A DNA stretch of 64,000 nt from Alphaproteobacteria bacterium (GTDB lineage Bacteria; Pseudomonadota; Alphaproteobacteria; UBA828): NCBI GenBank assembly GCA_022826665.1, contig JAJDUK010000034.1, forward strand, positions 1 through 64,000. The letters are read 5' to 3'. A model generated the notes under the pieces. The model worked only from the letters and a program-made list of their open reading frames with translations, was not told the DNA's origin and ran no database searches. The first letter of the stretch is position 1. The number at the start of each line of letters is the position of its first letter. The translations under genes were made by a program, and so were the position numbers. Of the stretch, positions 18,796 to 30,177 are shown piece after piece.

Positions 18796-19602
18796 CTAGT
18801 CGCCGCGCTCCAGCCGCCGCCGACGTTGGACGATCAGGAACATGTAGCCGCCGAAAAGAATGACGATGGCGCCGAACACCGAGAGCGCGCCCATGGTCGG
18901 GATCATCGGCGTGTAGCCGGAGCCCATCTTGGTGTAGAGCCATTCGGTGACCGTGCTGTCGGCGCCGGTGGTGAAGGTCGAGAGCGGGAAGTTGCCCCAG
19001 GAGAGCAGGAAGGCGAAGAGCGCGCCGGAGAAGAGGCCGGGCGCGAGCGCCGGGAGCGTGACCTCGCGGAAGGCCTGCCAGCGGCTCGCGCCGAGGTCAT
19101 AGGCGGCCTCCTCCTGCGCGGCGTCGAAGCCGTAGACCTGGATCGAGATCACCAGGGTCACGATGGGCACGATCCAGACCAGATGGGCGAAGACCGCCGC
19201 CTCCCAGCTCGGCAGCACGCCCACGTAGGTGAACCAGAGAAGCAGCGCGAGGCCGAGCACGGCCTGCGGGAAGAAGATCGGCAGCATGATGAGGCGCTGA
19301 TAGAACTGCCGCCCGCGCCAGTTGTAGCGGGCGAACGCCAAGGCGCCGAAGAAGCCCAGCACGACCGCGATCAGCGCGACGCAGCCCGCGACATAGAACG
19401 AGGTGAGGTGCAGATCCGTGGTCAGGTTGGCGCCCAGGGTCTGGTCGTACCACTTGTCGCTCCACGCCTTCACCGGGAAGCGGAAGTAGCGGGACTTGCC
19501 GAACGAGCTCGTGATGACCGAGAAGATCGGGATGTAGAGGAAGAGCGCGATCACGCCGGTCCAGACAGCGATCAGCCATATGACCCAGCGCTTGCTTTCC
19601 AT
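18796..19602 (-). CDS. Polyamine-type ABC importer permease, PotC-like
   Basis: 268 residues, six membrane helices and the EAA-loop block EEAAYDLGASRWQAFREVTLPALAPG, which contacts the ATPase. Sequence and position match PotC/PotI. It is the last gene of the four-gene importer operon, 21 bp after the PotB-like gene. Confidence 0.92.
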   Translation of the reverse strand: MESKRWVIWLIAVWTGVIALFLYIPIFSVITSSFGKSRYFRFPVKAWSDKWYDQTLGANLTTDLHLTSFYVAGCVALIAVVLGFFGALAFARYNWRGRQFYQRLIMLPIFFPQAVLGLALLLWFTYVGVLPSWEAAVFAHLVWIVPIVTLVISIQVYGFDAAQEEAAYDLGASRWQAFREVTLPALAPGLFSGALFAFLLSWGNFPLSTFTTGADSTVTEWLYTKMGSGYTPMIPTMGALSVFGAIVILFGGYMFLIVQRRRRLERGD

Positions 19603-19623
19603 CTCAGAGTCCGCCTGCGCGCG

Positions 19624-20538
19624 TCATCGTCGGCCCAGCAGCCGGTCGAGGTCGAGCCGGCGCATCACCAGCACCACGAGGAAGCCGGTGACCACGATGG
19701 CCAGCACGGAAATCGCCGATCCCAGCGGCCAGTTCTGGGCGTAGGTGAACTCGTGCTGGATGTCCTGGGCGATCACCGGCGTGTTCTGGCCGCCGAGCAG
19801 CTTGGCCTCCGAGATCGCGCCCACCGCCAGCACGAAGGTCAGCAGCGCCCCGATCAGGATGCCCGGCATGGCGATCGGCAGCTCGACCTCGCGGAAGATC
19901 TGGAAGCGGCTCGCGCCGAGATCGCGCGAGGCCTCCACCTGGTCGCGCGGCACCATGGAGAGCCCGAGCACGATGGGGAAGAGGGTGAAGGGCAGATAGA
20001 CGTAGATCATGCCCATCAGGATAGTGCCGGGCTCGTAGAGCAACGTGCCGGTGTCGATGCCGAAGGCGGTCTTGAGGCCGCCCGCCAGGATGCCACCGCC
20101 CTTGATCAGGAAGAGGTACCAACCGAAGAGTCGCACGTTCTCGGAGACGAAGAGCGGAATGACGAGCACCAGCATGACCGGCGCGGCCCAGCGGCCGAAC
20201 AGCTTGGAGAGGCCGTAGGCGATCGGATAGCCGATCATGAGGTTGCAGAGGACGGTGAGCCCGGCCAGCGCGAACGACCAGATGAAGGAGATGTAGTAGC
20301 TCTCGGTGAAGATGTGCTCGTAGTTCTCGGTGGTGAAGCCGGCGCCGAGGTCGAAGGTGCGCTCCGGCGTGAAGCTGAAGGCCAGCACGATCACCAGCGG
20401 GCCGACGAAGCCGATCAGGAAGAAGATCAGAACGGGCGTGGCGTTGAGCACGCCGGGCGAGCGCAGCCAGCTAAGCAGAAGTGCCCCGATACCCGGCTGC
20501 CGGATCAGCGGTGCAGGAGCCTCCGCGCGGTCGACCAT
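19624..20538 (-). CDS. Polyamine-type ABC importer permease, PotB-like
   Basis: 304 residues, with the EAA loop VEASRDLGASRFQIFREVELP and six helices in the binding-protein-dependent permease fold. Its ATG at 20536-20538 overlaps the ATPase stop by one base (TGATG), so the two are translationally coupled. It forms the membrane heterodimer with the PotC-like protein. Confidence 0.92.
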   Translation of the reverse strand: MVDRAEAPAPLIRQPGIGALLLSWLRSPGVLNATPVLIFFLIGFVGPLVIVLAFSFTPERTFDLGAGFTTENYEHIFTESYYISFIWSFALAGLTVLCNLMIGYPIAYGLSKLFGRWAAPVMLVLVIPLFVSENVRLFGWYLFLIKGGGILAGGLKTAFGIDTGTLLYEPGTILMGMIYVYLPFTLFPIVLGLSMVPRDQVEASRDLGASRFQIFREVELPIAMPGILIGALLTFVLAVGAISEAKLLGGQNTPVIAQDIQHEFTYAQNWPLGSAISVLAIVVTGFLVVLVMRRLDLDRLLGRR

Positions 20539-21605
20539 CAGTCTGTCACGAGCACGCTGTCTTTGGCGTCCCAGCCGATTAGCACGTCGTCGTTGAGCGA
20601 ACCCCGATAGGCCTGCTCGCGGAGCTTCTCGACGACGAACATCGAGCCGCCGGCGCTCACGTGGTACTGCACCCGGGAGCCCAGCGCGTACTCGTTGAAG
20701 AGCGAGCCCTCGATATGATTTTCCGCCTCGGAGGGGTCGTTTAGGAAGCGCATCGATTCGGGCCGGATCACGAGATAGCCATTGGCGAAGCCGTCCGGCC
20801 GGGCCGGGCTGGTGAAGCGGCGCTCGAAAGCGGGGCAGTCGATGCCGCCGTCCGCACCGGCCTGCACCGCGAGCGTGTTCACCTCCCCCATGAACTCCGA
20901 GACGAACTTGTTGCGCGGGCGCAGATAGATTTCGTTGGGCGAGCCGATCTGTATCAGTCGCCCCTCCTGCATGATCCCGATGCGGTCGCTCATCACCATC
21001 GCCTCTTCGAGGCTGTGGGTGATGTAGACGAAGGTCTTGCCCGTGGTGCGGTGGAGGTCCTTGAGCTCGACCTCCAGCAGCTTGCGCAGCCGATAGTCGA
21101 TGGCCGATAGCGGCTCATCGAAGAACAGGATGTCGGGGTCGGAGGCCAAGGCGCGGGCCAGCGCCACGCGTTGACGCTCACCGCCCGAGCACTTGGTGAC
21201 GGACTTGTCGTAGTAGTCCTCTGGCAACTGCACCACATTCATGAGCGAGAGGCCGCGCTCGCGGCGGGCACGCCGGCTCTCGCCCCGCATCTTCAGCGAG
21301 AACTCGATGTTCTGGCCCACCGTCTTGTGATTGAAGAGCGCGAGCGACTGAAAGACCATGCAGGTCGGTCGCCGATTCGCGGGCACTTGGTTGACCCGCT
21401 CGTCGCGCAGGTAGATGTCGCCCGCGGTCGGCTTCTCCAGCCCACCCAGCATGCGGAGCAGCGTGGTTTTGCCGCTGCCAGAGGGGCCGACGATGGTGAA
21501 GAACTCGCCCTCCTGGATATCGAGGGTGACGTCGTTCACGGCGACCAGTCGGCCGAACTGCTTGGTCAGGCTGACCATGCGCAGGATGGGCGCGGCATCC
21601 ACCAT
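20538..21605 (-). CDS. Polyamine-type ABC importer ATPase, PotA-like
   Basis: 355 residues. Walker A GPSGSGKTT, signature KCSGGERQRVALARA, Walker B ILFFDEPLSAID and switch His YITHSLEEA are intact. A C-terminal TOBE regulatory domain follows from about 250. Two stable hairpins lie between the binding-protein gene and this one. The PotA subfamily energises uptake of putrescine, spermidine and other amines, so an amine substrate is expected but not fixed. Confidence 0.93.
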   Translation of the reverse strand: MVDAAPILRMVSLTKQFGRLVAVNDVTLDIQEGEFFTIVGPSGSGKTTLLRMLGGLEKPTAGDIYLRDERVNQVPANRRPTCMVFQSLALFNHKTVGQNIEFSLKMRGESRRARRERGLSLMNVVQLPEDYYDKSVTKCSGGERQRVALARALASDPDILFFDEPLSAIDYRLRKLLEVELKDLHRTTGKTFVYITHSLEEAMVMSDRIGIMQEGRLIQIGSPNEIYLRPRNKFVSEFMGEVNTLAVQAGADGGIDCPAFERRFTSPARPDGFANGYLVIRPESMRFLNDPSEAENHIEGSLFNEYALGSRVQYHVSAGGSMFVVEKLREQAYRGSLNDDVLIGWDAKDSVLVTD

Positions 21606-21640
21606 GGCGCTCGTCTCGATCCTCTCTCCGCAAATGCGCC

Positions 21641-21705
21641 GCCCGGCCGGGACCGGCCGGGCGTGCGATCAAAGCGGGGGCGCGCGGTAGCTGCCGCGCG
21701 CCCCC
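21641..21705 (-). promoter_or_regulatory. Two intercistronic hairpins between the binding-protein and ATPase genes
   Basis: GCCCGGCC...GGCCGGGC (21641-21662) and GGGGGCGCGCGG...CCGCGCGCCCCC (21676-21705, 12-bp perfect stem, 6-nt loop) fill most of the 117-bp gap. In importer operons, such structures after the binding-protein gene often stabilise its mRNA and reduce read-through, so that binding protein exceeds the membrane parts. No U-tract follows either one. Confidence 0.6.
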
Positions 21706-21722
21706 ATCGCTGCCGGCCGGGC

Positions 21723-22916
21723 TTAGGACTTCTCGCGCCGCGCCGCCGTGTAGATGTCGTAGAGCCGGTTGTAGTCCGGCACCACGTCGTACTCGACGGA
21801 GTGCGAGATGCGGTAGTCGAACTCGTCCCACTGGAAGGAGTCGAGCTCTTCCGCCGTGAACTTGGCGAGCAGCTCCGGCTGCGACATCTGCCCCACCGGG
21901 AGCAGGAAGCCGCCGGCGGTCGCCACGGCGTAAGAGGTATCAGGCTGGAGGATGTACTCCATCCAGTCGAAGGCCTTCGGGTGCAGGTCGGGATTGTTGA
22001 CCACCGAGCTGAGCTCGATCCAGTTGATCCCGCCCTTGCCGTCGGCAGGCCCGCTCCTCGGCACCACGTGATAGAGGTTGGTGAGCCCGTCGAGACGCGC
22101 CGCCGAGATCGAGTAGGTGCCGCCACCGAAGTACATGTCGATCTCGTCGTTGATCACGGCAAGGTTCACGGCGACGAAGTCGTCCGAGACCATCTTTGCG
22201 CCGTTGATGAGCCGCCGCGCCGCTTCCTCGAAGGTGGCGACCTCGTCGTCGGACTTCATCTTGAACGGGTGCAGGCCGGCGGCCATGCAGATGTGCATGA
22301 TGTTCCAGTTGTCGTAGGCGAGGATGCCGTAGCGGCCGGCCATGTCGGGATTGTTGAACAGATCCCAGCCTTCGTCCTTCGCCATTTCGGCCGAGATGAC
22401 ATCGGTGTTGACCACGAAGTCGAAGGTATCCACCCGCTGGCAGACCCCCAGCAGGTGCTCATTGTCGAGGCTCATCGCCCACTTGTAGGGCGGATGGAAC
22501 ATCGGCAGCATCGCCTCGAAATAGGGCTCGAAGCGGGCCCGGTCGAGCTCGACGATCAGCCCCTCGGGCCACATCATCTCACGCGCCCAGGGATTGTTCA
22601 GGTTGATGATGTCCCAGATCGCGGTCTCGCCGGCGCGGAGCTTGTTGACTGAATCCGGGTCCGACGTGTGCAACTCGTACTTGATCCCCGTGTCGTACTG
22701 ATCGGTGAAGCCATCGAGCACGCGCGGGTCCACGTAGCCGTCCCACGTCAGCATCGTCAGTTCGTCAGCGGCACGGGCCCGGCCCGCGAGGGCACCGCCC
22801 GCACCCAGCGCCAACGCGCCTGCACCGATCCCCTGAAGCACCTGACGCCGGGTGGCGGCCGCGCCGCGCACCGGGTCGCGCTTCACCATCTGCTTGAGAA
22901 GTTTGTCCTCGTTCAT
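21723..22916 (-). CDS. Polyamine-type ABC importer substrate-binding protein, PotD-like
   Basis: 397 residues, periplasmic. A Tat-type signal TRRQVLQGIG, hydrophobic stretch and AGRARA cleavage region cover about residues 22-48. The mature part has the PotD beginning ELTMLTWDGYVDP and the type II binding-protein fold (for example WDIINLNNPW and NPDMAGRYGILAYDNWN). The ATG at 22916 has GGAGAAGACC before it; the frame upstream is not coding. It is probably the first importer gene and lies downstream of gntR on the same strand. Confidence 0.9.
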   Translation of the reverse strand: MNEDKLLKQMVKRDPVRGAAATRRQVLQGIGAGALALGAGGALAGRARAADELTMLTWDGYVDPRVLDGFTDQYDTGIKYELHTSDPDSVNKLRAGETAIWDIINLNNPWAREMMWPEGLIVELDRARFEPYFEAMLPMFHPPYKWAMSLDNEHLLGVCQRVDTFDFVVNTDVISAEMAKDEGWDLFNNPDMAGRYGILAYDNWNIMHICMAAGLHPFKMKSDDEVATFEEAARRLINGAKMVSDDFVAVNLAVINDEIDMYFGGGTYSISAARLDGLTNLYHVVPRSGPADGKGGINWIELSSVVNNPDLHPKAFDWMEYILQPDTSYAVATAGGFLLPVGQMSQPELLAKFTAEELDSFQWDEFDYRISHSVEYDVVPDYNRLYDIYTAARREKS

Positions 22917-23119
22917 GGTCTTCTCCTCTGTGGCGCCGCGCGATGGGGCCCGCGTCCAGCCCCGTGAAGGCGGCAACTAATGGTCGTGACGCGCTGGCCG
23001 CACTCCGCACGATTGCAGAGGCGACGATCCCGCCAATCTAAACACAATCGGAGCGGCGTCTCATCCCGAAATCGCCCGCAGAGATAAGCGGCGGCGACGG
23101 CCGCCGCAGGGGGAACGGC

Positions 23120-23839
23120 TCAGCCGGCGCTGGCCAGCAGGTCGGCGCGGGCGCGGTCCATGTGGGCGGAGAGCACTTCAACGGCGCGCTCCGCATCGCG
23201 GCGGGAGAGCGCCGCGAGCAGCGCACGGTGCTCGGCGTTGTAGGCGGTGATCTGCTCCGGCGTCAGGATCTTGTTCTTGATGGAGTCCCATTGCTGGTGG
23301 GCGCGGACGTGGTTGATGCGGTGGTAGATCTCGACGATCAGGGGATTGTGGGTCGCCTCTGCGAGCCTCAGGTGGAACATTTCGTCGGCCAGCGAGAAGC
23401 TCTCGGCGTCCTCCACGCCTTCCATCTCGGCGACCGCACGCTGCAGCGCGGCCATGTCGCGCGCCGTGGCGTTGCGCACCGCGAGCCGGGCCATCTGCGG
23501 CTCGATGGCGGCGCGGACCTCGACCAGCTCCAGCGGCGAGGTGATTTCGGAGACGTCGGTCTCGCCCGCGTCGGGCTCGTAGATGACGAATGTGCCGCTG
23601 CCCACCCGGCGTGCCACCAGCCCGCGCGCCGATAGCGAGCGCAGGGCTTCGCGCACCGTGCCGCGCGAGGCCGAAAACGACTCGGCGAGGCTGCGTTCCG
23701 GCGGCAATCGGTCGCCTATCGCGAGCGAGCCGTCGAGAATTCGTCGGGCGAGCTGCGCCGCGATCGCATCGGCCGCCGAATCGGCCGGCCTTGGAATTCC
23801 GCCGTTCTGGTTGCCGACCTGTGTGCCTTCGATCTCCAT
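23120..23839 (-). CDS. GntR-family regulator of the FadR (FCD) subfamily
   Basis: 239 residues from the ATG at 23839 (MEIEGTQVGNQ). The N-terminal winged helix has the GntR motif LPPERSLAESFSASRGTVREALRSL, then GSGTFV. The C-terminal FCD helical domain contains the metal/ligand residues of the family (FHLRLAEATHN, and H in AEHRALLAAL). FCD regulators usually sense small organic acids or amino acids. Placed between the importer operon and the oxidase operon, and facing the ATTGG array, it is the obvious local regulator of both arms. Confidence 0.92.
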   Translation of the reverse strand: MEIEGTQVGNQNGGIPRPADSAADAIAAQLARRILDGSLAIGDRLPPERSLAESFSASRGTVREALRSLSARGLVARRVGSGTFVIYEPDAGETDVSEITSPLELVEVRAAIEPQMARLAVRNATARDMAALQRAVAEMEGVEDAESFSLADEMFHLRLAEATHNPLIVEIYHRINHVRAHQQWDSIKNKILTPEQITAYNAEHRALLAALSRRDAERAVEVLSAHMDRARADLLASAG

Positions 23840-23981
23840 GGCGCCAGCCCATTTCCTGTTGCGCGCCGCCCGCCGGCCCGTGACCCAATCGCCTCCCAAA
23901 ACGTCTTACGCCACGACGCAGGCCGCATGCGGGCCTCTTTGCTTTAATCAATTTTGGCGTGACGTTCAACCATTCATTCAT

Positions 23982-24021
23982 ATTGGTTCACAATTGGTCC
24001 CGCCGATTGGGCGACAATTGG
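23982..24021. promoter_or_regulatory. Phased ATTGG array, putative operator of the amine locus
   Basis: Four ATTGG pentamers start at 23982, 23993, 24006 and 24017 (spacings 11, 13, 11). They form two 16-bp direct repeats, ATTGGttCACAATTGG and ATTGGgcGACAATTGG, identical at 13 of 16 positions and 24 bp apart, so they lie near one DNA face. A TTGACA -35-like hexamer follows at 24023-24028, without a clear -10. The array is in the 255-bp gap between gntR (minus) and the FAD oxidase (plus). Confidence 0.55.
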
Positions 24022-24094
24022 CTTGACAAATCTCGGGGCGGGGGCTTGAGTCCGCCCCCGAACATCGGCCGATCAAGGTCGGGGAGAGGAGCAC

Positions 24095-25438
24095 ATGACG
24101 CTTCCGCGGCACGTCAAGTATCTGATCATCGGGGCCGGGATCCACGGCCTCAGTACCGCGTATCACCTCGCTTCCTCGCTCAAGGCTAAGGGCAACGGCG
24201 CCGCCGCAGACATCCTGGTGGTGGACAAGACCGACATCGCCGCCGGGGCCTCTGGCATCGCCTGCGGCGTCGTCCGCAACAACTACTATCAGCCGGCCAT
24301 GCGCGAGCTGATGGCGGCCTGCGTGGAGGAGTGGGAGAGCGATCCCGAGGCCTACCACTACCATTCCGTTGGCTACATGCAGATCAGCCCCGAGAGCATG
24401 CATGCGGACGTTGCCGAGATCGCCGCGCAGCAGCGGGCGATCGGCTACGAATCCGAGTTCATCGAGGGCGAGGCCGACTGCACACGCTACATGCGGGGTC
24501 TGTTCGACGACTGGCAGGCGCCCGGCATCACCTCCGTCCTGCACGAGAAGAGGGGCGGCTACGCCCACAACAAGGCCTCGATGCTGGGGCTCGCGGACAA
24601 GGCGAGGGGCGCCGGCGTGCGCATCCTCACCGGAGTCGAGGTCAAGGGCTTCGGCTTCGGCGCCAACTCCAAGGCGGTGACCTCGGTCGAGACCGACCAG
24701 GGCTCCATCGACGTCGACCAGGTCATCGTCGCGGTCGGGCCCTGGGTACCGCGCATCTGGGAGATGCTCGACCTGCCGGAACGGATCGACGTCAAGGACC
24801 TGGAAGGCACCCTGCACCATGATGTGGACATGTGGCGCTTCTGGTGCCTGCAGGAAGGGACGATCGCGGTCGAGCCCTCCTACGGCATGGCGGACGACGG
24901 CTCCATGCCGCCGGTCATTCACGTCGATTCGGACGAGCCGCTTTACTCCGACGTGGACGGCAAGCTGATCACCGACGAGATGTGGGGCATCTACTACAAG
25001 CCGGACTTCAACTTCGGCGGCGTCCAGGGCGGCGCCACGCCTTACAAGGTGAAGACGGCGGTGCCCGAGGTGGCGATCGATCCCTACGGGCCGGAGTCGC
25101 CGGAATTCGTGGTCGACGAGGCGTTCAGGGAGATGTGGTGCTCGGCGCTCGCCCACTGCCAGAGCCGCTACAAAGGACAGATCGGACACTGGCTCGATGA
25201 GCCCTCCGGCGGCATCGGCGCGTTCGCCGCCGACAATTTCCCCGTGTTCGATCGCTTCCGCGAGAACTGCTACGTGATTGCGGATTCGAACCACGGCTAC
25301 AAGATGATGGCCGTCGGCAAGCTGGTCGCCGACGAGCTTATGGGCCGCGAAAGCGCCCTGCTCGAGCCCTTCCGCTTCTCGCGCTTTGCGGAGGGCCGCC
25401 TTCACCCGGTCTCGAACAGCCCCTTCCCGTGGAGCTGA
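24095..25438 (+). CDS. FAD-dependent DAO-family amine/amino-acid oxidoreductase
   Basis: 447 residues. The N-terminal Rossmann motif IIGAGIHGLSTAYHLA binds FAD; VVDKTDIAAGASG follows, and the C-terminal DSNHGYKMMAVGKLVADEL block closes the flavin site, as in sarcosine-oxidase-beta, MSOX and PuuB relatives. Such enzymes oxidise N-substituted amino acids or gamma-glutamyl amines to imines, releasing formaldehyde, an aldehyde or ammonia. GAGGAG precedes the ATG. It is the first gene of the rightward operon. Here it may act as a single-chain counterpart of N-methylglutamate dehydrogenase or of gamma-glutamylputrescine oxidase. Confidence 0.88.
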   Translation: MTLPRHVKYLIIGAGIHGLSTAYHLASSLKAKGNGAAADILVVDKTDIAAGASGIACGVVRNNYYQPAMRELMAACVEEWESDPEAYHYHSVGYMQISPESMHADVAEIAAQQRAIGYESEFIEGEADCTRYMRGLFDDWQAPGITSVLHEKRGGYAHNKASMLGLADKARGAGVRILTGVEVKGFGFGANSKAVTSVETDQGSIDVDQVIVAVGPWVPRIWEMLDLPERIDVKDLEGTLHHDVDMWRFWCLQEGTIAVEPSYGMADDGSMPPVIHVDSDEPLYSDVDGKLITDEMWGIYYKPDFNFGGVQGGATPYKVKTAVPEVAIDPYGPESPEFVVDEAFREMWCSALAHCQSRYKGQIGHWLDEPSGGIGAFAADNFPVFDRFRENCYVIADSNHGYKMMAVGKLVADELMGRESALLEPFRFSRFAEGRLHPVSNSPFPWS

Positions 25439-25472: not shown

Positions 25473-26942
25473 ATGACCGATCTTGAAGCCCATGTGAACA
25501 GGGAAGGCCGCGACGAGCTGGTGCGGCAGGTGCGCGCCAAGATCGAGGAGCTCGGTGTCACCTACATCTACTACCAGTTCGTCTCCGTCACGGGCCGGAT
25601 CGTCGGCAAGGGCATGCCCGCCGATCACTGGGAGCAGATCGCCGAGCGCGGCTTTCAGCTGGTCTACGGCTCGACCGCAAACCTCTTCACCGACCGCCAC
25701 TCCAACTACATCGGCTATGGGCCGGAAGCGTCGGAATTGGTCGGCATCCCCGACCCCGAGACCTTCGTCCAGCTACCCTGGGACAAGCGCGTCGCCCGCG
25801 TCTTCTGCACCTGCTTCCGCAACCGGGAGGAGCGTGAGAACCCCGGCGGCCACCTGACCTCGGACTGCCGCGGCAACCTGCGGATCATCCACGACGAGTT
25901 CCAGGCCAAGCACGGAATGCAGATGCGCCACGGCACCGAGCCCGAGATGATGTGGCTCAAGCGCGGCGCGGACGGCGGCACCGACGGCGGCGTGACCAAG
26001 CCCAACTGCTACCACATCGACCAGTTCGAGGAGCTCCGGCCGATCTTCATGCAGGTGATCGAGTACGGCCAGGCCATGGGGCTCGACATGATCCAGGGCG
26101 ACCACGAGGACGCGCCCGGCCAGCTTGAGCTCAACTTCACCTTCGACGATGCGCTCCGCACCGCCGACCGGCTCACCACGTACCGCCAGATCTGCGCCCA
26201 GGTCGCCCGCGAGCACGGCGTCATCGCCTGCTTCATGTCGAAGCCCTTCATGGGGGTCTCGGCGAGCGGCTGCCACCACAATGTCTCGCTCTGGACCGGC
26301 GGCGAGCAAAGGGTCAACGCGCTGCATCAGGACCCGATGCCCGGCCTGGAAGACACCTTCAGCTACTGGAAGGGCGGCGAGAACCTGTTCATGCCGGATC
26401 CGTCGATCGACGATCACAAGCCCGGCCCGGTCGGCCTCAAGTGCATTGGCGGCGTGATGGAGCACCTTGCGGCGCTCACCGCCCTCGGCTCGTCCACGGT
26501 CAACTCGTATCGGCGTCTCTGGGATACCGGCTTCTGGGCGCCGGTCTTCGCCGACTGGGGCTATCAGAACCGGACCTGCGGCCTGCGCGTCTCCGCGCCC
26601 GGCCGCTTCGAGTACCGCTCGGTCGATTCGATGGTCAACCCGTACCTGATGGCCGGCGCCATCATCAAGGCATTCGACGACGGCATCGCGCGCGATCTGG
26701 ACCCCGGCGAGCCGGAGGAGCGCAACATCTATCAGGCCATGGAGGCCGGCAAGCTGGTGAAGAAGCTGCCGATGTCGCTCGGCGAGGCGCTCGACGCGCT
26801 GGAGCGCGACGAGGTGATCAAGGCCGCGATGCCGGACGAGATGCTCAAGGTCTTCATGCACTACAAGCGTGACGAGTGGGAGCGCTTCATGTCCACGGTC
26901 ACCGAGTGGGACGTCGAGACCTACCTCGACTGCCTGCCTTAG
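25473..26942 (+). CDS. Glutamine-synthetase-like ligase (GlnT/GmaS/PuuA superfamily)
   Basis: 489 residues. The catalytic fold is intact: GTEPEMMWL (near 152) and EDAPGQLELNF (near 214) supply metal-binding Glu residues, SASGCHHNVSLW is the ATP/His block, and NRTCGLRV with EYRSVDSMVNPYL gives the glutamate/phosphate Arg and the C-terminal metal site. The N-terminal part lacks the standard GSI start. These enzymes ligate glutamate to ammonia (GlnT), methylamine (GmaS) or putrescine (PuuA). Adjacency to a split glutamate synthase favours GmaS- or GlnT-like use. The ATG at 25473 is used; the open frame before it overlaps the oxidase. Confidence 0.88.
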   Translation: MTDLEAHVNREGRDELVRQVRAKIEELGVTYIYYQFVSVTGRIVGKGMPADHWEQIAERGFQLVYGSTANLFTDRHSNYIGYGPEASELVGIPDPETFVQLPWDKRVARVFCTCFRNREERENPGGHLTSDCRGNLRIIHDEFQAKHGMQMRHGTEPEMMWLKRGADGGTDGGVTKPNCYHIDQFEELRPIFMQVIEYGQAMGLDMIQGDHEDAPGQLELNFTFDDALRTADRLTTYRQICAQVAREHGVIACFMSKPFMGVSASGCHHNVSLWTGGEQRVNALHQDPMPGLEDTFSYWKGGENLFMPDPSIDDHKPGPVGLKCIGGVMEHLAALTALGSSTVNSYRRLWDTGFWAPVFADWGYQNRTCGLRVSAPGRFEYRSVDSMVNPYLMAGAIIKAFDDGIARDLDPGEPEERNIYQAMEAGKLVKKLPMSLGEALDALERDEVIKAAMPDEMLKVFMHYKRDEWERFMSTVTEWDVETYLDCLP

Positions 26943-26975: not shown

Positions 26976-27932
26976 ATGTGCGGGATAGCAGGACTGATCC
27001 ATCGCGGATCGAGCGGCGACATCGGGGCGGAGATGACCACGATGCTCCAGGCGCTCAAGCACCGCGGGCCGGATTCCACCGGCTTCGCCATCTACGGCAT
27101 CCCGGTCGAGAGCGACCACGTGATGCGCTTCAAGGTGGCGGAGCAGGAGGACATCGGCAAAGGCTTCGAAATCCACCAGCAGATCAAGGACCGCAAGGCC
27201 GAGGTGGACAAGCGCATCCGCAGCATGGATGTCGAGATTGTCGGTGAGGAGCAGGCGACCGAGTACGCTTACCGCTACCGCCTGCGCTTCCCCGCCGATG
27301 ACGACGGCGGCCAGCAGCGGCTCAAGCGCTTCGCCGACTATATCGAGGACGTCGAGGGCGCGGAGATTCTCTCCCTCGGCCGCGCGCTGGAGCTGATCAA
27401 GGATCTCGGCGACGCCGGCATCGTGAGCGAGCAGTACGACCTCGCCGGCTTCCAGGGCACCCACGCCATCGGCCACACGCGCATGGCCACGGAATCGGAT
27501 GTCGATATCCGCTCGGCCCATCCCTACTGGGCCTATCCCTTCAACGACATCTCGGTGGTCCACAACGGCCAGCTCACCAACTACTGGAAGTTCCGACGGG
27601 CGCTGGAGCACCGGGGCCATCGCTTCATGTCGAACTGCGATTCCGAGTTGATCGCTGTCTACCTCGCCGACCGCATCGAGCGGGGCGACACGCTCAAAGA
27701 GGCGATGGACCGCTCGGTGGGCGAGCTCGACGGCGTCTTCACCTATCTGGTGGCGACGGCGGACAGCCTGGGCATGGCCAAGGACACCATGGCCGCCAAG
27801 CCCATGGTGCTCTACGAGAGCGACGATTTCGTCGGCCTCGCCTCCGAGGAGGTCGCGATCCGCGGCATCATGCCCGACGAGATCGACACCTGGGATCCCT
27901 ACGAGGGGGAGGTCAAGGTATGGCAGAACTGA
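26976..27932 (+). CDS. Class II glutamine amidotransferase (GlxB/MgsA-like)
   Basis: 318 residues. The Ntn-hydrolase domain begins at Cys2 (MCGIAGLIHRG), the catalytic nucleophile after Met removal. KHRGPDSTG, GHTRMATES and VHNGQLTNYW are the glutamine-binding and oxyanion blocks. It matches domain 1 of glutamate synthase made as a separate protein, as in GlxB of rhizobia and MgsA of N-methylglutamate synthase. It should release ammonia from glutamine, or serve methylamine transfer, for the downstream subunits. It overlaps the next gene by 13 bp. Confidence 0.9.
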   Translation: MCGIAGLIHRGSSGDIGAEMTTMLQALKHRGPDSTGFAIYGIPVESDHVMRFKVAEQEDIGKGFEIHQQIKDRKAEVDKRIRSMDVEIVGEEQATEYAYRYRLRFPADDDGGQQRLKRFADYIEDVEGAEILSLGRALELIKDLGDAGIVSEQYDLAGFQGTHAIGHTRMATESDVDIRSAHPYWAYPFNDISVVHNGQLTNYWKFRRALEHRGHRFMSNCDSELIAVYLADRIERGDTLKEAMDRSVGELDGVFTYLVATADSLGMAKDTMAAKPMVLYESDDFVGLASEEVAIRGIMPDEIDTWDPYEGEVKVWQN

Positions 27933-28771
27933 GCCCCGACGACCGGCACAAATCCCATGACATGGGGCTGCACGCGGAACAGCTCGCCGGCCGCACCCAG
28001 CAGGTTTTCTTCTACCCCGAGGAAGGCGACAACTACACCTATCCCGAGGGCTTCGATGTCGATTTCACCAAGAAGGCGACGATCGACGCTGCCGAGATGG
28101 ACGGGCCCGAGGTCAATCTCCGCATCCGCGAACTGATGGGCGAGGGCTACGGCCACATCGTGGTGCAGAACCCGCTCGCCAAGCACTCCCTCGGCGTCGG
28201 CATCCTCAATCGGCTCAAGCTCGATTTCGAGGGCAGCCTCGGCTACTTCGGCTGCGGCCTGGTCGACGGCCCCAACATCCACATCAAGGGCCGCGTCGGC
28301 TGGTCCTGCGCCGAGAACATGATGGCGGGTGTGGTCGTCATCGAGAAGAACGCAGGCTCCACCTTCGGCGCAGCACTCAGGGGCGGCGACCTGGTCTGCA
28401 AGGGCGACGTGGGCTCGCGCACCGGCATCGACATGAAGGGCGGCACGATTATCATCGGCGGCCGCGCCGGCGCGTTTACCGGCTTCATGATGCAGCGCGG
28501 GCGCATCGTCATCCTCGGCGACGCCGGCATCAACCTCGGCGATTCCCTCTACGACGGCACGATCTTCGTGGGCGGCACCATCGCCTCCCTCGGTGTCGAT
28601 GCCGTCCCCGGCGAGATGACCGACGTCGAAGCGCGCTGGCTCGAAAACAAGCTCGCGACCTACGGCCTGGAGGCGCCCAACGGCGTCGCGAACCTGACCA
28701 AGATCGTCGCCGGCAAGCAGCTCTGGAACTACGACAACCTTGAGCCGACCGAGAAGAAGATCGCGCTCTAG
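27920..28771 (+). CDS. GXGXG-domain glutamate synthase subunit (GlxC/MgsB-like)
   Basis: 283 residues. The right-handed beta-helix of glutamate synthase domain 3 appears as repeated glycine-rich turns: FGCGLVDGPNIHIKGRVGW, KGDVGSRTGIDMKGGTIII, GGRAGAFTGFMMQRGRIVI and GDAGINLGDSLYDGTIFVGG. In the large enzyme this domain is structural and borders the ammonia tunnel between amidotransferase and FMN sites. The ATG at 27920 follows GGGGGAGG, and its overlap with the preceding gene suggests stoichiometric synthesis. Confidence 0.9.
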   Translation: MAELSPDDRHKSHDMGLHAEQLAGRTQQVFFYPEEGDNYTYPEGFDVDFTKKATIDAAEMDGPEVNLRIRELMGEGYGHIVVQNPLAKHSLGVGILNRLKLDFEGSLGYFGCGLVDGPNIHIKGRVGWSCAENMMAGVVVIEKNAGSTFGAALRGGDLVCKGDVGSRTGIDMKGGTIIIGGRAGAFTGFMMQRGRIVILGDAGINLGDSLYDGTIFVGGTIASLGVDAVPGEMTDVEARWLENKLATYGLEAPNGVANLTKIVAGKQLWNYDNLEPTEKKIAL

Positions 28772-28809: not shown

Positions 28810-30177
28810 ATGGCCAGCGACAGACGCGAAGCCGTCGCCAACCGGCCCAGCCGCAACCGTCACATCCTGGGGCGGAGCAGAATCTTTTCGCCGGAGGTGA
28901 TCGACGACATCCACATCAAGGCGGAGCTCGGCCGCTACCGGATGCGGGGCTTCTCGCTCTTCAAGAACATCCCGACCTTCGACGATCTGACCTTCCTGCC
29001 GGGCACGCTCACGCGCTTCGTCATCGAGGGCTACCGCGAGAAGTGCACGACCACGACGGTGATCGGGCCCAAGGCCAAGCGCCCGCTGGTGCTCGACATC
29101 CCGGTCTACGTCACCGGCATGAGCTTCGGCGCGCTCTCCTACGAGGCCAAGACCGCGCTCGCGCGCGGCGCCACCATGGCGGGCACCGCCACCTGCTCCG
29201 GCGAAGGCGGCATGATCCCCGACGAGCGGCGCTATTCCGAGAAGTGGCTCTACCAGTGCATCCAGTCCCGCTACGGCTTCAACCCCCACCATCTGCGGCT
29301 CGCGGATGCCTGCGAGTTCTTCATCGGCCAGGGCTGCAAGGTCGGGCTCGGCGGCCACTTGATGGGGCAGAAGGTCACCGACCAAGTGGCCGAGATGCGC
29401 TCGCTGCCCGCCGGCATCGACCAGCGCTCGCCCGCGCGCCATCCCGACTGGCTCGGGCCGGACGACCTCGCGCTCAAGATCAACGAGATCCGCGAGGCCA
29501 CCAACGCCGAGATCCCGATCCAGCTCAAGCTCGGCGCCGCCCGCGTCTATGACGACGTGCGCATGGCGATCAAGACCGGACCGGACAGCATCTACATCGA
29601 CGGCATGGAGGGCTCCACCGGCGCCGGCCCGCATCTCGCGACAGAGGAGACCGGCGTGCCCGGCATCGCGGCCATCCGCCAGGCGCGCAAGGCGCTCGAC
29701 GACCTCGGCGCCTCCGGCAGCATCAGCCTCGTCTACGCCGGCGGCGTGCGCAACGGCGGCGACATCGCCAAGGCGCTGGCCCTGGGTGCCGATGCAGTGG
29801 CCATCGGCCATTCGGTGATGATGGCGCTCAACTGCAACAAGGACATCCCGGAGGCCGACTTCGAGGCCGAGATCGGGGTCGAGGCCGGCTACTGCTATCA
29901 CTGCCACACCGGGCGCTGCCCCGTGGGCGTCGCCACCCAGGACCCGGAGCTGCGCAAGCGGCTCGACCCTGACGAAGCGGCGGAGCGGGTCTACAACTTC
30001 CTCCACACGCTGACGCTGGAATGCCAGATGATGGCGCGCGCCTGCGGCAAGACCGACGTGCACAGCCTGGAGCCGGAGGACCTCGCCGCGCTCACCATGG
30101 AGGCCTCGGCCATGGCCCAGGTGCCGCTCGCGGGCTCCCAGCACACCGTCGGCCGCCCCGACATGAACCGCTACTAG
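28810..30177 (+). CDS. FMN-dependent glutamate synthase domain protein (GlxD/MgsC-like)
   Basis: 455 residues, equivalent to the central FMN domain of GltB. The TIM-barrel FMN site is visible in YVTGMSFGALS, PIQLKLGAARV and DGMEGSTGAGP. The three Cys of the 3Fe-4S site are in YCYHCHTGRCPVGVATQ, spaced C-x2-C-x4-C. It would reduce 2-oxoglutarate plus an amine to glutamate or N-alkylglutamate. AGGAG sits 6 nt before the ATG. Three separate genes in the order amidotransferase, GXGXG, FMN match both GlxBCD and MgsABC. Confidence 0.92.
   Translation: MASDRREAVANRPSRNRHILGRSRIFSPEVIDDIHIKAELGRYRMRGFSLFKNIPTFDDLTFLPGTLTRFVIEGYREKCTTTTVIGPKAKRPLVLDIPVYVTGMSFGALSYEAKTALARGATMAGTATCSGEGGMIPDERRYSEKWLYQCIQSRYGFNPHHLRLADACEFFIGQGCKVGLGGHLMGQKVTDQVAEMRSLPAGIDQRSPARHPDWLGPDDLALKINEIREATNAEIPIQLKLGAARVYDDVRMAIKTGPDSIYIDGMEGSTGAGPHLATEETGVPGIAAIRQARKALDDLGASGSISLVYAGGVRNGGDIAKALALGADAVAIGHSVMMALNCNKDIPEADFEAEIGVEAGYCYHCHTGRCPVGVATQDPELRKRLDPDEAAERVYNFLHTLTLECQMMARACGKTDVHSLEPEDLAALTMEASAMAQVPLAGSQHTVGRPDMNRY

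Follow-up and report, generated by a model that had tools for sequence, protein, structure and literature searches.

GntR regulators are described as dimers that bind palindromes; the named direct-repeat exceptions are one member of the FadR subfamily, NanR, and two of the HutC subfamily, FarR and NagQ (PMC4494728, in an excerpt). The locus considered here raises the question of whether an array of short repeats that all point in the same direction can be the operator of a FadR-type regulator and, if so, how such an array would be read. The locus lies in a window of 64,000 nucleotides, a term that we use for the whole stretch of DNA analyzed, where four ATTGG pentamers (boxes) stand between a gntR gene and the operon that it faces.

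The locus and its array

The features of the locus are as follows.

18796..22916, minus strand: polyamine-type ABC transporter genes, 3' of gntR on the same strand, including two permease-like ABC ORFs (the latter from the ORF list alone)
20538..21605, minus strand: ABC ATPase
21723..22916, minus strand: ABC binding protein
23033..23048, minus strand: candidate weaker second element, ATTGT-N6-ATTGG, block CGATTGTGTTTAGATTG, 5' of the ABC binding-protein gene
23120..23839, minus strand: gntR, GntR/FCD regulator, 239 aa from ATG (Pfam GntR E 3e-22, FCD E 1.7e-27)
23941..23969, minus strand: predicted divergent gntR promoter, TTGAAC (23969-23964) N17 TAAAGC (23946-23941)
23982..23986, plus strand: ATTGG box 1, read directly; identical in 6/6 genus loci
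23993..23997, plus strand: ATTGG box 2, step 11 after box 1; sequence and spacing identical in 6/6 genus loci
24006..24010, plus strand: ATTGG box 3, step 13 after box 2; exact in 3/6 genus loci
24017..24021, plus strand: ATTGG box 4, step 11 after box 3; identical in 6/6 genus loci
24023..24051, plus strand: predicted sigma-70-type operon promoter, TTGACA (24023-24028) N17 TTGAGT (24046-24051)
24095..25438, plus strand: FAD-dependent oxidoreductase of the DAO family, with a weak sarcosine-oxidase-beta match (profile matches); first gene of the operon
25473..26942, plus strand: glutamine-synthetase-like protein, type III, GMAS/GlnT-like (317.8 bits to TIGR03105, below the cut-off of 469.6)
26976..27932, plus strand: class-II glutamine amidotransferase domain, GlxB/MgsA-like (domain match)
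27920..28771, plus strand: GXGXG domain protein, GlxC/MgsB-like (domain match)
28810..30177, plus strand: glutamate-synthase FMN domain, GlxD/MgsC-like (domain match)

A sequence-only reading of this DNA had described four ATTGG pentamers at steps of 11, 13 and 11, forming two 16-mers 24 bp apart that agree at 13 of 16 positions, and had placed them directly 5' of a TTGACA hexamer, between the GntR gene and the facing operon. The window sequence confirms the former description and the coordinates the latter. The two 16-mers, ATTGGTTCACAATTGG (at 23982) and ATTGGGCGACAATTGG (at 24006), mismatch at 3 of 16 positions, a single base separates box 4 from the hexamer at 24023-24028, and the array is bounded by the gntR ATG at 23839 on the minus strand and by the start of the facing gene at 24095.

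The pattern is rare. ATTGGN6ATTGG matches twice in the window, against 0.03 matches expected from shuffles (two matches occurred in 0 of 100 shuffles), and three times in the whole genome of 4,625,793 bases; two of these three matches are at the array, and the reversed-pattern control gives none. When spacers of N4 to N6 are allowed, the pattern is found at 7 places in the window genome, of which 2 are at the array (control 0), and at 41 places across the 8 genus genomes, against 8 for the reversed-pattern control. In a search for a regulon, 8 loci outside the array were inspected by their ORF lists, and none was recognised as belonging to the same pathway, which an ORF list by itself does not exclude. 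A separate observation is that ATTGGTTTGAATTGG occurs in three genus genomes (L158, L168 and L179; matches at 1501), shortly 5' of an ORF that carries MPVAS...RLAAxARQLALEAGRTIM near its start and looks, by eye, like an inositol phosphatase or CysQ.

The domain types of the facing operon fit the N-methylglutamate pathway (GMAS-like plus MgsABC-like), with all of the enzymes scoring below equivalog cut-offs, and a set of the mgdABCD type is absent among the nine proteins scanned. The glnT-glxBCD cluster of SAR11, which has been proposed to act in the oxidation of methylamine via N-methylglutamate, is made up of the gene types that also form the last four genes of the operon here (PMC3160333, in an excerpt); unlike that cluster, the window operon is led by a different oxidoreductase. 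On the other side of gntR, the ATTG pair of the candidate second element at 23033-23048 is kept at step 11 in 5 of the 6 genus loci, the first copy in G016 being ATTA. Judged from its sequence, this element is possibly a second operator, or else merely an extended -10.

The regulator

The regulator consists of an N-terminal GntR winged helix (78.5 bits) and a C-terminal FCD helical domain (96.7 bits), the helices of which are present in the structural model, and by this domain architecture it fits the FadR subfamily of the GntR family. Within the order, 16 of 22 genomes, including that of the window, contain a match to it at E <= 1e-40. Four residues, D152, H156, H204 and H226, are invariant across 24 aligned sequences; we take this Asp and the three His to be the ligands of the FCD metal site.

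The AlphaFold model, a monomer that gives no indication of how the protein sits on DNA, has a mean pLDDT of 85. When it is used as a Foldseek query, NanR is the top match, and DhdR, VanR and other FadR-type regulators follow with E-values close to that of NanR; over the whole chain, the TM-scores are only about 0.4-0.5. Profile scores do not assign the protein to NanR or PdhR: it reaches 86.8 bits with the NCBIfam NanR profile, below the cut-off of 260, and by this measure is not a NanR orthologue, and 92.4 bits with the PdhR equivalog profile, below the cut-off of 330. In NanR, cooperativity is carried by an N-terminal extension; in the window protein, 17 residues stand before the first helix and are modeled at low confidence, the leaders of the orthologues vary in sequence, and start codons are uncertain.

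Conservation within the genus

An orthologue of the oxidoreductase is present in 6 of the 8 genus genomes, the other two being 62% and 67% complete, and all 6 of these loci carry both a divergent GntR gene and the array. The sequence-only reading had staked its proposal in part on conservation at orthologous loci, and on this count it is not refuted, as the array is kept in every one of the six. In the alignment of these loci, box 3 is the one that varies: the window, G020 and G015 have it exact, and in G016, G017 and G019 it is degenerate. In addition, a 20-bp insertion in G015, which corresponds to about two helical turns, adds one box, so that this locus has five boxes at steps of 11, 21, 12 and 11.

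Association with an adjacent GntR gene

For a wider comparison, we used 120 oxidoreductase loci, 40 from whole-genome searches and 80 named ones, some of which share genomes. The presence of a GntR gene was called by tblastn, independently of the motif, which gave 52 loci with a divergent orthologue of GntR upstream, 63 without one and 5 that were too short; after removal of near-copies, 47 GntR loci and 58 GntR-less loci remained. Two additional searches produced no new loci: a phylum-wide search at E <= 1e-140 matched 3 of 398 genomes, all already included, and a search in the order of G037 yielded 1 genome, also already included.

ATTGG boxes go with an adjacent GntR gene across distant families. 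Among strand-merged pentamers compared with shuffles, TTGGT ranks first (128 against 24.6) and ATTGG second (153 against 35.8) in the GntR set, whereas the scaled counts in the GntR-less set, 22.5 and 25.7, are not raised. Box density is 13.6 per kb with GntR and 2.3 without it, and at least one ATTGG or CCAAT within 300 bp is found in 46 of 47 GntR loci against 26 of 58 GntR-less loci. An exact direct pair at 8-14 bp occurs in 23/47 and 3/58 loci, respectively (Fisher 1.8e-7), and, with one locus per GntR cluster, in 11/26 (8e-5); owing to relatedness, p-values calculated over loci are too small, while the contrast between GntR and GntR-less loci is unaffected. With one mismatch allowed in the partner box, a direct partner at 9-12 bp is present in 37/47 loci against 5/58. 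An exact direct pair is missing in 24 of the 47 GntR loci, and one of them, L110, has no exact box at all. To follow up the GntR-less loci with a direct pair, nine loci (L091, L137 and L145 included) were searched for GntR by tblastn; the sole locus with a GntR was L110, one of those already counted as GntR loci.

A second batch of 24 further upstream regions was examined using the same rule. A direct pair is present in 10 of 11 GntR loci and in 0 of 11 GntR-less loci, one of the latter being a near-copy of an earlier locus; the two remaining regions were too short, and one of these carries an array. Among the GntR loci of this batch that are not near-copies of earlier ones, 3 of 4 have a direct pair. 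Since all of the positives belong to one family (f36), the second batch is a partial, not fully independent, confirmation.

Orientation and spacing of the boxes

Direct orientation is the main exact form. At 8-14 bp, the GntR set contains 43 exact direct pairs against 0.44 expected (the largest count in 200 shuffles being 3), and 22 against 0.2 when one locus is taken per GntR cluster, defined at 70% identity. Exact inverted pairs number 5 against 0.21 expected, all of them in one genus and none in the one-per-cluster set, and exact everted pairs 9 against 0.22, with 3 in the one-per-cluster set. In the GntR-less set there are 3 direct pairs, a number that does not exceed the largest shuffle. 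Counted by cluster (n=26), those with a member that has an exact pair number 12 for direct, 1 for inverted and 4 for everted pairs.

Direct steps of up to 40 bp cluster at 9-13, 19-24 and 31-36 bp, with a single one at 26, a distribution that would result if the boxes all faced the same side of the helix. These data do not establish a precise pitch, since the Rayleigh value is somewhat higher at 11-12 bp than at 10.5 bp. If 4-of-5 matching is used on the one-per-cluster boxes, the direct partner peaks at step 11 (27% against 2% expected), and a CCAAT-like partner is enriched at step 8 (13% against 1%) and at step 10 (6% against 1%); over the 26 loci, 22 have a direct partner and 13 an inverted one. 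The canonical FadR-type operator is one inverted repeat built about GT...AC; in the window array itself, a search for such a site found no exact ATTGG/CCAAT inverted pair, only the imperfect form ATTG-N5-CAAT.

Exact palindromes are found in a sister genus that belongs to the same family as the window genus, where 5 of 6 loci have ATTGG-N5-CCAAT (ATTGGTANNACCAAT) near gntR, together with everted CCAAT-N6-ATTGG pairs near the oxidoreductase gene. In the GntR tree, the five palindrome loci are joined by L010, which has neither an exact direct nor an exact inverted pair, in a branch supported at 100/99, with L016 and L017 next to it. This branch and the window genus both fall within one larger group, the fork of which has moderate support (87/65).

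Some further palindromes were observed by the way. The GntR of G004, which is 56-57% identical (L065, about 1395-1500), has the palindromes ATTGGTTAGACCAA and ATTGGTCAACCAAT at or just before its start, in a genome that is 78% complete and in which no close oxidoreductase orthologue was found. In the upstream regions of L039, L040 and L047, inspection by eye shows a second palindrome, similar to TTTGG-N5-CCA(T), on that side of the boxes which faces the oxidoreductase gene; it is degenerate in L041.

Placement relative to predicted promoters

The promoters considered here are matches to consensus sequences and not mapped transcription starts. The predicted operon promoter combines a perfect -35 with a weak -10 (TTGAGT); TTGACA-N17-TTGAGT is the best-scoring pair, at the same spacing, in 6/6 genus loci, and the block is conserved. 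The block of the predicted divergent promoter, TTGAAC-N17-TAAAGC, is conserved in 6/6 loci and is the top leftward pair in 4/6, another pair scoring higher in the window and in G019. The array takes up the space from one predicted -35 box to the other in the window genus, starts about 8-10 bases past the predicted -10 in family f36 and straddles TTGACA in L015. It was also seen that TTGAGTCCGCCCCCG (24046-24060, after the -35) is identical in 6/6 genus loci, which is more than a -10 alone needs.

Comparison with known systems

The closest precedent is E. coli NanR, which is likewise a FadR-type GntR/FCD regulator associated with short same-direction repeats at a defined close spacing. On (GGTATA)3, three NanR dimers bind cooperatively, each placing one domain on a repeat while its second domain contacts non-consensus DNA (PMC8012715, in an excerpt). 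NanR acts by repression, as the regulator here would. The two systems differ in the repeated word, which is GGTATA for NanR and ATTGG(T) in the window, and in spacing: NanR dimers are described as about half a turn apart, whereas ATTGG arrays consist of 2-5 boxes mostly at full-turn steps of 9-11. They differ also in placement, the NanR operator being described as downstream of the polymerase site, whereas the window array precedes the predicted -35. The f36 array, which follows the predicted promoter, is comparable to NanR in this respect.

The box itself is shared with E. coli PdhR, the operator of which, AATTGGTaagACCAATT, is located at +11 to +27 and has the half-site AATTGGT (PMC10572922, in an excerpt). 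The downstream arrays of f36 are comparable in placement to this site; the PdhR site is one inverted repeat, however, and the window array is without an exact inverted pair. In other systems, accessory half-sites are described 7-12 nt from GntR sites in the FadR, HutC and YtrA groups (PMC4494728, in an excerpt). In those groups the palindrome is the main site and the extra box weaker, whereas here it is the same-direction boxes that vary least. HypR, which is of the FCD type, was considered as a further likeness and set aside, its site being unclear and not array-like in the excerpt of PMC6608401. No published description of an ATTGG-array operator was recognised in searches of the open-licence PMC literature.

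These comparisons modify two statements of the sequence-only reading. That the array is unlike the usual FadR palindromes holds in that direct pairs are the dominant exact form (12/26 clusters), but direct repeats are known from NanR (PMC8012715 and PMC4494728, both in excerpts). Its suggestion of an unusual binding mode stands for the helically spaced direct arrays, which are conserved and atypical for FadR-type regulators; it is weakened by the NanR precedent, the PdhR-like half-site, the palindrome of the sister genus and the imperfect inverted partners. The direct, helically spaced form is unusual for FadR-type regulators but has a precedent in NanR, and the half-site is ordinary.

Proposed reading and alternatives

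We consider it very probable, from the sequence comparisons above, that GntR has its operator in the array, and reasonably probable that this operator is read chiefly through its same-direction boxes. Each ATTGG(T) box would be a half-site of the PdhR/FadR type. Because the boxes have the same direction and are about one helical turn apart, one wing-helix domain of each dimer may read one box, with neighbouring dimers next to one another and, for the most part, on the same side of the helix. The enriched CCAAT-like partners at steps 8 and 10, beside the direct peak at step 11, suggest a strong half-site with a weak inverted partner, so that the other domain of the dimer would rest on an inverted sequence of weaker match, 8-10 bp beyond the box, as for NanR (PMC8012715, in an excerpt).

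We are less sure of cooperativity between neighbouring dimers and of repression. A filled array between the predicted -35 boxes, touching TTGACA, would bar RNA polymerase from the operon promoter and, probably, also from gntR with the transporter genes that follow it. Release of the array would then come from a small molecule bound by the FCD domain, probably one of the substrates or intermediates of this amine or N-methylglutamate-type pathway.

Several other explanations can be considered, some of which are compatible with one another and with the proposed reading. The first is that the sites are ordinary FadR-type pseudo-palindromes: each ATTG-N5-CAAT unit (ATTGGTTCACAAT, ATTGGGCGACAAT) would bind one dimer, TGG would be merely an accessory half-site, and the array would amount to two classical sites 24 bp apart. 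Both window units match ATTG-N5-CAAT, CAAT is present in 11 of the 21 step-11 units that are exact, the inverted partner peaks at step 8, true palindromes exist in the sister genus, and accessory half-sites at 7-12 nt are on record (PMC4494728, in an excerpt). However, boxes 1 and 2 keep their ATTGG in 6/6 genus loci, whereas the C before box 2 that the palindrome calls for is C in just 3/6 and T in the other 3/6 (before box 4, it is C in 5/6). Moreover, the arrays with steps of 9 and 10 retain ATTGG and not the ATTG-N5-CAAT palindrome, and C at +9 is found in 20% of 141 boxes, which is no enrichment. We regard this explanation as unlikely, though still to be taken seriously.

The second alternative is that of an activator site, in which GntR bound 5' of the -35 would aid RNA polymerase at the operon promoter. 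The array is just 5' of the predicted -35, which is a usual place for an activator too, and the combination of a perfect -35 with a poor -10 agrees with this idea. The proposed blocking of polymerase nevertheless fits the placements in f36 (after the best predicted promoter), L015 (across TTGACA) and the window, whereas activation fits the window placement alone, and we judge activation to be rather improbable.

The boxes might also be read by another DNA-binding protein, with the GntR neighbour incidental. The 26 of 58 GntR-less loci in which 300 bp contain one or more copies of ATTGG or CCAAT, 3 of them with a direct pair, would accord with this, but box density is about sixfold lower without GntR although the regulated gene is the same, and the half-site equals that of PdhR (PMC10572922, in an excerpt), which makes such a protein a very improbable reader. 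Finally, short as the boxes are, a chance repeat or an effect of base composition is refuted by conservation in the genus alignment and contradicted by the shuffles, the rarity in the whole genome, the enrichment in the GntR set and the second batch, and its probability is practically negligible.

Implications

Starting again from the array as the operator of GntR, a broader proposal for this group of regulators may be put forward, which we hold to be possible but on balance doubtful. The group would bind DNA as dimers stacked along one side, in strict register with the helical pitch, with one half-site per dimer; the number of boxes would evolve (2-5, with one two-turn insertion), and the half-site would have been re-set from a direct array to a palindrome in the sister genus, leaving the symmetry of the operator free and the half-site fixed.

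Beyond the named exceptions, the locus would represent a further widely distributed orthologous group in which full-turn direct-repeat arrays occur together with the palindrome of a sister genus. It makes two questions approachable, namely, how one fold reads both symmetries and whether the number of boxes tunes repression. In addition, the array provides a ready motif for a poorly known operon of the amine or N-methylglutamate type that is present in many bacteria.
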